The notes under the pieces are model-generated. The model was given only the letters and a program-made list of their open reading frames with translations, was not told the origin of the DNA and made no database searches. From Acetobacteraceae bacterium AT-5844 (GTDB lineage Bacteria; Pseudomonadota; Alphaproteobacteria; Acetobacterales; Acetobacteraceae), in assembly GCA_000245075.1 (NCBI GenBank), contig JH599933.1, forward strand, positions 1 to 44,346: 44,346 nucleotides of DNA, written 5' to 3'. This document shows positions 3,278-41,439 of the stretch, one piece after another (position 1 is the first letter of the stretch; every line of letters starts with the position of its first letter). Made by a program: the position numbers and the translations under genes.

Positions 3278-4762
3278 ATGGGAACGCCCATCAACGTCCC
3301 GATCCTCGGGGAATATACGCTGAACACTTCGGGGGCCTATGACATCACCCTCGGCCTCAGCTCTCGCATCATCGTCGAGCGCAACGGGGGCAGCCCGGCG
3401 GGAGACGCGGTCAATGTCGTCTTTGACACCGTCACCATCGGCGCGCTTTCCAGCATCACCGTGCAGAACGCCAGCCTCACCATCGACAGCCTGGCCACCG
3501 TCAACGCATTGACCACCTACAACATCGGCAATAGCGGCACGCTGGATCTTTCCTCGACCATCGGCGTCAACCTGCTTTCGCCCATCAACTTCACCGGTGT
3601 CGGCGGCCGGCTGGTGCTGGACGCCGGCCTGAATGTGAGCCTGCTGAGCAACGTCACAGGCTTCGATAGCGACGACGTCCTCTCCTTCAACGACGTATCC
3701 TCCGCCACTGACGTCCGCTACGAGAACGGCGAGATCCGCGTCTATGACGGCGACACAGTCGTCGCCCGGGCCGATGTCAGCGGTAATTTCGATGGCGATG
3801 CGCTGGGCTTCCAGTCCGACGGGCAGGGCGGCATCAATGTCGGCGTCGGCCTCGGCAATGGGGGTGGCGATCCCAACGACAATTTTGTCAACGGCCTGCA
3901 CAGCGAATACATCATCGCGCAGACGCCACTCGGGCAGCTCTACCTGCAAGATAAGGTGCCTGGGCGCGACGGCTCCGCCACGATTGCCGACGCCAAGTAC
4001 ATCGTCTTCGCGGATGGCGTTGCCCGCTTCGATGCCTCCGGCGCCGCCCAGGATGTGACGCATCTCTACCAGGCGGCCTTCGACCGCCGACCGGACGCCG
4101 TCGGCCTGGAATATTGGACAGGCCGCCTGGAATCCAGCGACCTCACCGAGGCACAGATCGCTTCGTCCTTCAGCGCGACGCCGGAATTTGCCACTAGGTA
4201 TGGTGCGCTGGACAATGCCGGCTACGTCAACCAACTCTATCAGAACGTCCTCGGTCGTGCCGGTGAGACATCTGGCGTAGAGTACTGGACCAGCGAGCTG
4301 AACAGCGGCGCGCGGGACCGCGGCAACGTGCTAATGGGCTTCTCCGACAGCATCGAGAATATCGAGAACTCGCTATCCTTTACCGGAGACCGGGAATACG
4401 GTGCCGCATATCGCCTTTATGAGGCGGCCCTCAACCGCGAACCCGAAGCGGTGGGCCTCGCATACTGGTACGAGCGGTTGGAGGGAGGGGATTCCCTCAC
4501 CAACGTTGCACAGGGCTTCGTCGATTCACAAGAATTCGGCCGCCTCTACGGCACGTTGGATAACTCGTCCTTCGTGTCTCAGCTTTATCAAAACGTGCTG
4601 GATCGTCCAGGAGATCAGGTCGGGCAGGAATATTGGACAGGCGTTCTGGAGAACGGCGGCAGCCGGGCGGACGTTCTCGTCGGCTTCTCCGACAGCCTGG
4701 AGGCCCGCATTCTGACAGCGGATGCAACGCACGATAGCTGGGTGTTCCTCGGCGCCGCCTGA
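3278..4762 (+). CDS. DUF4214 domain protein, probably secreted (type I secretion-like)
   Basis: Acidic, cysteine-poor protein of 494 residues without an N-terminal signal peptide. Residues 1-185 are rich in Val/Ile/Thr/Asn/Gly, as in beta-helical adhesins. A Gly/Asp/Asn linker (GNGGGDPNDNF) follows, then two tandem DUF4214 units (about residues 263-365 and 375-475). Each unit carries LYQAAFDRRPDAVGLEYW or LYEAALNREPEAVGLAYW, a FVDSQEF or FSATPEF turn, and a second half with LYQNVLGR or LYQNVLDR. DUF4214 modules are common at the C-termini of RTX/type I-secreted and S-layer-associated proteins. The ATG at 3278 has GGAGAGA 8 bases upstream. No secretion genes are adjacent. Surface or matrix role inferred. 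Confidence 0.85.
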   Translation: MGTPINVPILGEYTLNTSGAYDITLGLSSRIIVERNGGSPAGDAVNVVFDTVTIGALSSITVQNASLTIDSLATVNALTTYNIGNSGTLDLSSTIGVNLLSPINFTGVGGRLVLDAGLNVSLLSNVTGFDSDDVLSFNDVSSATDVRYENGEIRVYDGDTVVARADVSGNFDGDALGFQSDGQGGINVGVGLGNGGGDPNDNFVNGLHSEYIIAQTPLGQLYLQDKVPGRDGSATIADAKYIVFADGVARFDASGAAQDVTHLYQAAFDRRPDAVGLEYWTGRLESSDLTEAQIASSFSATPEFATRYGALDNAGYVNQLYQNVLGRAGETSGVEYWTSELNSGARDRGNVLMGFSDSIENIENSLSFTGDREYGAAYRLYEAALNREPEAVGLAYWYERLEGGDSLTNVAQGFVDSQEFGRLYGTLDNSSFVSQLYQNVLDRPGDQVGQEYWTGVLENGGSRADVLVGFSDSLEARILTADATHDSWVFLGAA

Positions 4763-8438: not shown

Positions 8439-8529
8439 TGGCGGATGGGGTGGGATTCGAACCCACGATACCCTTTTGAGGTATACACACTTTCCAGGCG
8501 TGCGCCTTCGACCACTCGGCCACCCATCC
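8439..8529 (-). tRNA. tRNA-Ser (anticodon GGA)
   Basis: A 91-nucleotide class II tRNA with encoded CCA. The acceptor stem GGATGGG pairs with CCCATCC, followed by G and CCA. The D-arm begins TGGCCGAGTGG, the anticodon loop is CTGGAAA (anticodon GGA, plus-strand 8493-8495), there is a long variable arm with TACC/GGTA pairing, and the T-loop GTGGGTTCGAATCCCAC is standard. It reads UCC and UCU codons. Its 3' end faces the gene-poor stretch and cydAB. Confidence 0.96.
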
Positions 8530-40014: not shown

Positions 40015-40113
40015 GCGGTGTGTGCCTGTCCGTCAGTTGGGCGGAGGTGCAGTCGTAAGCCAGGCGGTGGGGCAGGGCAAATGAGGGATGCCCGCGCCTT
40101 CAGGGAAGCGGTT

Positions 40114-40142
40114 TTGACGTTCATGGGCAAATTCTGTACATT
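40114..40142 (+). promoter_or_regulatory. nhaA promoter
   Basis: TTGACG and TACATT are separated by 17 bases. Transcription from it would start near 40149 and yield a leader of about 85 nucleotides. Confidence 0.65.
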
Positions 40143-40148
40143 TTGTCA

Positions 40149-40233
40149 CCTTCCCTGGGCTGTGTGCTGCGTGCGCCCAGGGATCAGCACCCCAACGGAG
40201 ACAGGTATCAACGTTATTCCGTGAGGAGTGCGC
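40149..40233 (+). promoter_or_regulatory. Structured nhaA leader with H-type pseudoknot (candidate riboswitch)
   Basis: CCCTGGGC (40153-40160) pairs with GCCCAGGG (40175-40182). GTGCTG in its loop (40164-40169) is complementary to CAGCAC (40185-40190) just downstream, giving an H-type pseudoknot with 8- and 6-bp stems. A second hairpin, ACGGA (40195-40199) with TCCGT (40218-40222), ends at the base before the Shine-Dalgarno sequence GAGGAG. Lithium/sodium-sensing nhaA leader RNAs are known; whether this belongs to one of those classes is untested. Confidence 0.55.
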
Positions 40234-41439
40234 ATGACTCACCTCGCCCGGGCCGGCCGTGTTCAGAACACGTTCCGGCGCTTTCTCGATAATGAGTCCT
40301 CTGGTGGGCTCGTGCTGATGGCGGTGGCCGTGCTGGCCATCATCACTGCCAATTCAGCGGCCGCGGCAGAGTATTTCGCCGGGCTGCACGCCTATATCGG
40401 CCCGCTCAGCGTGCAGCATTGGATCAATGACGCGTTGATGGCGCTGTTCTTCCTGCTGGTTGGGCTGGAGCTGAAGCGCGAGATGCTGGACGGGCAGCTC
40501 GCCACCTGGAGCCGCCGGGTGCTGCCAGGGGTAGCGGCGGCGGGCGGCATGCTGGCGCCGGCGCTGATCTACCTCATCTTTAATGGTGGTGATCCGGCAG
40601 CGGCGCGGGGCTGGGCGATACCGGCGGCGACGGACATTGCCTTCGCGCTCGGCGTTCTGTCGCTGCTCGGGCCGCGTGTGCCCGTGTCCTTGAAGGTGTT
40701 TCTCGCGGCGCTGGCGATCATCGATGATCTGGGTGCCGTCGTCATCATTGCCCTGTTCTACAGCGGCAATCTGTCGCTGCCGGATCTGGCGGGCGCCGCC
40801 GCCGTGTTGGGCCTGCTGGTGGTGCTGAACCGGCGCGGGGTGATGAGCCTGGCGCCGTATCTGCTGCTGGGGGCCGTGCTCTGGCTGTTGGTGCTGCGCT
40901 CGGGCGTGCATGCGACTCTGGCGGGTGTGCTGCTGGCGCTGACCATCCCGATCCGCCTGACGCCGGGCACGCCGGAGGCCAAGGTGCAGGAATCGCCCCT
41001 GCATCGGTTGGAGCATTGGCTGCAACGGCCGGTGGCCTTCCTGGTGGTGCCGATTTTCGGCTTTGCCAATGCCGGTGTTTCTTTCTCGGGCGTGACGCCG
41101 GCTGTGCTGGTGGAGCCGCTGACGCTGGGCGTGGCCGGGGGGCTGCTGCTCGGCAAGCTGTTGGGGGTGTTTGGGGCCACGGCGGTGATGGTGCGGCTGA
41201 AGCTGGCAGACCTGCCGGCCGGGGCGAGCTGGGGGCAGATGTTCGGCGTCTCTCTGCTCTGCGGTATCGGTTTCACCATGAGCCTGTTCATCGGGCTGCT
41301 GGCCTTCGATGAGCCGGCCATGCAGGACAAGGTGAAGTTCGGCATCCTCGCTGGCTCGCTGGCGGCGGGGCTGCTGGGGTATCTCGTGCTGCGGATGACA
41401 TCCCGCGAAGGCAAGGCGCCGGGAACCCGGGGCGCCTGA
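40234..41439 (+). CDS. nhaA: Na+/H+ antiporter NhaA
   Basis: Inner-membrane sodium/proton antiporter of 401 residues with about twelve helices. The conserved sites are present: the transport pair Asp-Asp in [20 protein letters not shown], Asp in [39 protein letters not shown] near the N-terminus and [16 protein letters not shown] in the C-terminal half. The ATG at 40234 is preceded by GAGGAG; a GTG six bases earlier would leave the ribosome-binding site inside the gene. Transcribed alone from the promoter at 40114 with a structured leader. Confidence 0.97.

Follow-up and report, generated by a model that had tools for sequence, protein, structure and literature searches.

A conserved structured leader RNA upstream of nhaA as a candidate third class of nhaA riboswitch in Alphaproteobacteria

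The nhaA gene of Acetobacteraceae bacterium AT-5844 raises the question of whether the leader of this sodium/proton antiporter gene folds into a conserved regulatory RNA and, if so, which structure and which signal are involved. The window analyzed here (the whole stretch of 44,346 nucleotides of contig JH599933.1) encodes nhaA on the forward strand at 40234..41439, with the start codon ATG at 40234 and a match to PF06965 of 468.4 bits (E 2e-140). A Shine-Dalgarno (SD) sequence, GAGGAG (40223..40228, +), is located 5 nt ahead of the start codon. Four NhaA-like matches were found in this genome, and the leader used as a DNA query against the same genome matched a single place, namely the nhaA leader itself. 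Within positions 40015-40260, the only promoter-like site is a predicted sigma-70-type promoter at 40114..40142 (+), assigned by consensus match and composed of TTGACG (40114-40119), a 17-nt spacer, and TACATT (40137-40142) (shuffled mean 0.0, sd 0.1). Since this sole site ends at 40142, the transcript is expected to start near 40148 and would then probably include the whole structure discussed below. A start downstream of 40180, which according to the earlier note would speak against a leader RNA at this place, is not indicated by the predicted promoter. A sequence scan found no terminator in the nhaA leader.

The earlier note, made from the window sequence, had described the leader as a perfect 8-bp stem, the loop of which can form an H-type pseudoknot, followed by a hairpin ending exactly at the SD sequence. 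In the window, CCCTGGGC (40153-40160) indeed pairs with GCCCAGGG (40175-40182) across a 14-base loop, GTGCTG within this loop (40164-40169) has its full complement in CAGCAC (40185-40190), and ACGGAG (40195-40200) pairs with TTCCGT (40217-40222), the end of which abuts the SD sequence. The further statement that such nesting is unlikely to occur by chance held for the 85-nt segment, whose fold was more stable than that of its shuffles (z −2.80, with 1 of 200 reaching the same level), but not for other cuts, which were unremarkable (z −1.25 for the stem segment alone, −1.90 and 0.00 for two longer cuts of the leader, and −0.37 for 40148-40203). As the z value varies with the cut between −2.80 and 0.00, folding energy alone is not decisive.

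To place the leader among its relatives, similarity and pattern searches were considered together. In a DNA search of 58 relatives, one leader match was obtained outside the window's genome, namely in the congener G008 (85% over query positions 31-83). The nhaA leader of G027 (locus L009), which belongs to another genus, keeps GCGUGUGCUGCGUGCGC and AUACGGAGAC without CAGCAC. An exact scan with the pattern GTGTGCTGCGTGCN{8,38}CGGAGAC, covering 84,980 species with one genome per species, returned 110 sites in 109 stretches. An NhaA match was present within 1600 nt downstream of 91 of the 110 sites and directly downstream of 90, with the extrapolated start codon 54-116 nt from the motif start; the first copy in L089 was excluded from the 90, its NhaA match being reached only via the next gene, 1.5 kb on. 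Sixteen sites, at which NhaA was absent, were judged to be chance matches, one was cut by the locus end, and two look like true copies preceding other ORFs. The leader tests excluded five of the 91 NhaA sites, which lacked a usable start codon. Matches of other searches that were judged to be chance comprised a first-pattern match in G188, judged by eye to lie in coding sequence, and, in the class pattern search, in which 7 of 385 genomes matched, the six besides the window, all of which lay inside long open frames.

Among the titles listed, which covered 80 of the 109 stretches, 68 were motif loci; two of these are MAGs titled only Proteobacteria, and 66 of the 68 are taken by us, from title or genus, to belong to the Alphaproteobacteria. 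Motif carriers include rhizobia, the Brucella group, Pleomorphomonas, Aureimonas, and Paracoccus, as well as Rhodobacter, Roseomonas, Asticcacaulis, and a Sphingomonadales MAG.

The motif was also found on plasmids, where an annotated nhaA gene lies right behind it in 10 of the 14 regions examined (13 from 67 matching records and one from another 20). A DNA search of the plasmid collection with the window leader itself gave no match. On two Agrobacterium plasmids (L197 and L206, 1-2768), the tniB/tniQ transposition genes are followed directly by the motif and nhaA, which suggests that switch and pump move together. A truncated copy on an Agrobacterium plasmid (L202:1501-1539, +), with no annotated nhaA behind it, is probably a remnant. 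Other riboswitches occur in the vicinity of some copies, namely a fluoride riboswitch about 190 nt past the nhaA gene in L197 (2955-3031, +) and a sul1 riboswitch about 1.4 kb from the motif in L159 (2184-2239, −). Sinorhizobium psoraleae (L089) carries two identical motif copies 1.4 kb apart (2832-2885 and 4257-4310, both −), one ahead of nhaA and the other ahead of a short NhaA-like start only. Three Paracoccus copies (L092:3722-3777, +; L158:3398-3453, −; L205:1499-1554, +) precede short ORFs instead of nhaA, measuring 50, 109, and 52 codons, respectively, by the best-placed start, with those of L092 and L205 being alike. Possibly, these ORFs represent another gene under the same control.

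The conserved motif, about 54 nt long, lies immediately ahead of the ribosome binding site. Its parts are the stem P1, a GC-rich but variable hairpin (P2), the ACGGAGAC box, which hardly varies, and an [A/G]AC element. In the window, this candidate nhaA-III motif occupies 40153..40206 (+), i.e., nearly the same coordinates as the fold proposed in the earlier note, but it is a different structure. P1 (40158..40177, +) is formed by GGC (40158-40160) with GCC (40175-40177) and by GUGU (40162-40165) with GUGC (40171-40174), leaving a bulged U at 40161 and the terminal loop GCUGC at 40166-40170. Its core, GUGYGCUGCGUGC, is G·U-rich and nearly invariant, the invariance being partly a matter of selection, since most rows had been retrieved with a pattern that prescribes this core. 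P2 (40180..40193, +) pairs GGG (40180-40182) with CCC (40191-40193) in the model alignment, with a fold z of −2.21 in the window. The ACGGAGAC box follows at 40195..40202 (+); in the 100-row alignment, its sixth base is G in 99 rows, its eighth base is C in 98, and the remaining six are identical in all 100; for most rows, the pattern had prescribed seven of the eight bases. The element [A/G]AC[C/G/U], represented in the window by AACG (40210..40213, +), was found in 70 of 77 distinct leaders, mostly 6-8 nt past the box. After thinning, it was present in 21 of 24 leaders, compared with a shuffled mean of 10.4 and a maximum of 18.

Support for P1 and P2 as paired elements was evaluated in alignment A5, which holds 100 rows (99 distinct) from 99 of the 109 motif sources, without eight near-duplicates and without L202 and L204. 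Across the 99 distinct sequences, 99.7% of the P1 cells form a pair. Its outer pair varies considerably (GC 64, AU 16, GU 14, CG 1, UG 1, other 2), and its second pair to a smaller extent (GC 93, GU 2, CG 1, UA 1). Inside P1, a U·G pair is replaced by C-G in 7 of the 100 rows, and pairing is kept; all seven are plasmid copies, which came from the similarity search and not from the pattern. For P2, the paired share amounts to 79.8% of cells, and three of its four pairs show double changes. In total, 57 cells were changed on both sides, compared with 18.5 ± 3.4 in shuffles, and the covariation score was 0.177 versus 0.099 in shuffled alignments (a value reached in 0 of 500 shuffles and in none of the slid controls), figures that lean towards the structure because A5 consists of related sequences aligned by fitting to the model. 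Both the P1 flanks and P2 had been left free by the search pattern, and the P2 region, considered without any alignment, beat its own shuffles in 93 of 100 cases (mean z −2.0). The motif is thus almost certainly a real structured cis-regulatory RNA, and one feature expected of a riboswitch, namely a conserved, structured 5′ leader RNA with covariation support, was found here.

Membership of the window leader was assessed by means of covariance models. Model R3, composed of 90 copies with the window, L067, L137, L139, and L141 left out, detected the leader with 35.3 bits (E 4.9e-7 in 85.5 kb), and model R1, derived from 24 rhizobial-type copies, scored it at 18.6 bits (E 0.001 in 163 kb; 0.03 per genome). 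Over 385 genomes of the class, R1 matched 155 at E up to 0.1; these matches were taken as chance, NhaA being present in 0 of 30 loci examined. The even class sample (385 genomes, searched by pattern and R1) contained no clear member besides the window. For 27 other nhaA loci of relatives, R3 revealed no convincing motif (best 18.1 bits, E 0.011). Model R2, which includes the window, found the motif in 4 of 377 family genomes; the newly found one, G345, carries it right before NhaA and was also detected by a window-free model. With four of the 377 family genomes and no further clear member in the class sample, the motif appears patchy in the Acetobacteraceae.

The structure drawn in the earlier note behaves differently in the same alignment. 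Its uninterrupted 8-pair outer stem (40153..40182, +) occurs in the window only among the 100 aligned members; the longest one elsewhere has six pairs (two rows), L116 shows four pairs plus five past a bulge, and G008 has two mismatches. In its outer part, the stem competes with P2, the 5′ strand of which it engages. A full 6-nt complement to GTGCTG, required for the pseudoknot (40164..40190, +; not counted as part of the motif), is present in 2 of the 100 members, the second one being G008, and shuffled sequence gives about 2.6 per 100. Moreover, the consensus fold assigns the place of CAGCAC to P2 and its loop, with CAGCA inside the loop. Although every pair of the pseudoknot model exists in the window, and the full complement recurs in G008, a functional core made up of the 8-bp stem and the pairing of its 14-nt loop with CAGCAC is very improbable on these counts, and the pseudoknot was rejected as the conserved core. 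The earlier note had regarded compensatory changes in its two stems among relatives as decisive; as the drawn stems are not conserved across the 100 members, its pseudoknot version falls by its own measure. The wider claim of a regulatory nhaA leader stood in that a real, conserved, structured RNA lies beside the ribosome binding site, but the conserved fold is not the one that was drawn.

Weighing against the riboswitch reading proposed below, besides the three Paracoccus copies that precede short ORFs, is the far higher predicted stability of the non-consensus long stem in the window (−16.8 kcal/mol versus −5.9 for P1 plus P2). The minimum-energy fold of the window leader contains this stem, with GCACCC paired to the SD region. 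Because the energy model is ignorant of any ligand, the predicted stability does not settle which fold is used, and the long-stem fold may represent a species-specific off state.

The relation of the motif to known sodium- and lithium-responsive leaders was addressed by comparison with Rfam 15. At gathering scores, the window yielded a tRNA gene only (8442-8529, −), and for the leader, none of the riboswitch families gave a match at E up to 10. The families suggested in the earlier note thus do not account for it: nhaA-I (RF03057) had no match in the window at the gathering score nor in the leader at E up to 10, nhaA-II (RF03038) had no leader match at E up to 10 and a differing consensus, and DUF1646 had no leader match at E up to 10 in all of Rfam 15. 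For nhaA-II, no match reached the gathering cut-off of 70.4 bits among the 150 candidates scored per genome in five genomes, including the window's, G008, and G027, and the window leader was not among the matches listed up to E 10 from these candidates. In the class sample, nhaA-II matched 0 of 190 genomes, and no control matched either, so that this sample carries little weight. The motif was also free of overlapping Rfam matches in 31 additional loci carrying it (13 and 18; L094 and L126 excluded as chance sites, and some loci being one genome under two ids) and in L005 and L009. A Brucella-type copy gave nothing convincing at E up to 10, its only match being one of 9.7 bits on the opposite strand.

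The Rfam method itself works at these loci, as nhaA-I was detected in 5 of 20 nhaA loci of relatives (19 from the same family and one from elsewhere in the class) with 43.8-51.4 bits. All five belong to the window's genus and carry nhaA-I (Li+-I) before nhaA (L003:1395-1449, +; L014:1389-1444, +; L015:2699-2754, −; L016:2703-2759, −; L017:1392-1447, +), in agreement with the remark of the earlier note that Li+-sensing nhaA leaders exist elsewhere. None of the 20 loci scanned had nhaA-I and the new motif together. Both are small leader RNAs near the ribosome binding site, occupy the same place before nhaA in congeners, and probably share the same task. However, nhaA-I has its own consensus, GGGUGC...GCAGG...UGGUCGGGCCGCCA, as opposed to GGC-GUGUGCUGCGUGC-GCC...ACGGAGAC of the motif, and no cross-match was obtained in either direction. 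Similarly, nhaA-II (Li+-II) is an nhaA leader with several hairpins near the SD sequence, but it is described by an 84-position, three-hairpin model ending in GCCCGUCGAUAACC...CACG, a consensus read off a chance alignment. DUF1646 (Na+-I) likewise is an alkali-ion sensor before sodium-transport genes; according to PMC9646797, its consensus resembles that of nhaA-I, whereas that of the new motif does not. An earlier description of the motif was not found among the open-access papers listed, and the main texts of the motif-discovery papers PMC11109978, PMC8632094, and PMC2864571 hold no word starting with 'nha'. Matching no Rfam family, the motif is a class not found described, which is to be read as 'not found' rather than as 'unpublished'.

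By analogy, the leader is probably a translational riboswitch with Li+ and/or Na+ as ligand, representing a third class of nhaA leaders in Alphaproteobacteria (nhaA-III). The ligand is suggested by the downstream gene, by nhaA-I at the same place in congeners, and by the response of nhaA-I and nhaA-II to Li+; according to PMC9646797, the latter two presumably exert their control at the ribosome binding site. In the proposed mechanism, the leader would bind Li+ and/or Na+ at high concentration and thereby raise NhaA synthesis. Binding of the ion would bring the P1-P2 core and the ACGGAG box into a common fold, allowing the last hairpin of the earlier note, termed P3 (40195..40222, +), to form. 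P3 would occupy the pyrimidine stretch before the SD sequence, which would thus remain unpaired and accessible to the ribosome. Without the ion, the pyrimidine stretch would pair with the SD sequence, resulting in low translation. In the window species, the long stem would free GCACCC for the SD region and may add to the off state.

The two hairpins on which this switch would depend are mutually exclusive in the window. P3 (ACGGAG with UUCCGU) is perfect there and reaches −4.3 kcal/mol, compared with −4.7 kcal/mol for the proposed alternative hairpin at 40216..40229 (+), in which AUUCC (40216-40220) pairs with GGAGU (40225-40229) and hides the SD sequence. In Paracoccus- and Brucella-type leaders, P3 extends to 7-8 pairs, and comparable choices exist in relatives. 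Cross-relative support is weak: over 81 leaders, P3 and the anti-SD pairing had mean z values of −0.57 and −0.32, a more favourable picture that faded after thinning to 22 leaders, where 82 and 117 of 1000 shuffles, respectively, were as low. The two segments overlap in 20 of the 22 thinned leaders versus 16.4 expected. As the excess over shuffles is slight, the P3/SD switch is put forward as a proposal.

Regarding the signal, the identity of the gene alone leaves it unfixed, and NhaA works at alkaline pH. A conserved leader that controls nhaA in response to something else, such as a different ion or small molecule, temperature, or alkaline pH sensed by the folding of the leader itself, is the strongest competitor, albeit an unlikely one. 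Ligand-binding aptamers usually have a long, nearly invariant core, and such a core is less expected of a thermometer. In addition, the nhaA-I RNA found ahead of nhaA in five congeners is a Li+ sensor according to PMC9646797.

Clearly less probable is a leader whose conserved core and GGAG-containing box are bound by a repressor or activator protein. CsrA-type proteins bind GGA sequences, and a possible target of this kind is contained in ACGGAGAC; leaders conserved at such a size can also be protein sites. The travel of the motif with nhaA on plasmids argues against protein binding and favours self-contained sensing. The notion of a leader peptide, in which translation of a short ORF beginning GUG UGC UGC GUG CGC controls nhaA, can hardly be upheld. 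In the window, this frame is open for 20 codons up to the stop TGA (40222-40224), which adjoins the SD sequence, but the GUG start is removed by the core change in 7 of 100 rows, the spacing between the core and ACGGA is spread over the three frames (28, 37, and 35 of 100), and the ORF length is widely variable, on which grounds this reading was rejected. Furthermore, the core changes track base pairing and not codons.

Taken as an alkali-ion riboswitch, the motif would constitute a third, structurally independent class for nhaA, widespread in Alphaproteobacteria, mobile with its gene, having a tandem G·U helix in the ion site, and alternating with nhaA-I at one position ahead of nhaA within one genus; for this combined reading, we consider the chances to be slightly better than even. 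The motif offers a concrete, alignable candidate in much-studied groups, i.e., rhizobia, Paracoccus, and Roseomonas, and is plasmid-borne as well. If confirmed, it would represent a third, unrelated RNA solution for telling Li+ or Na+ from K+, and it would reveal the means by which a main sodium/lithium exporter is regulated in these bacteria.
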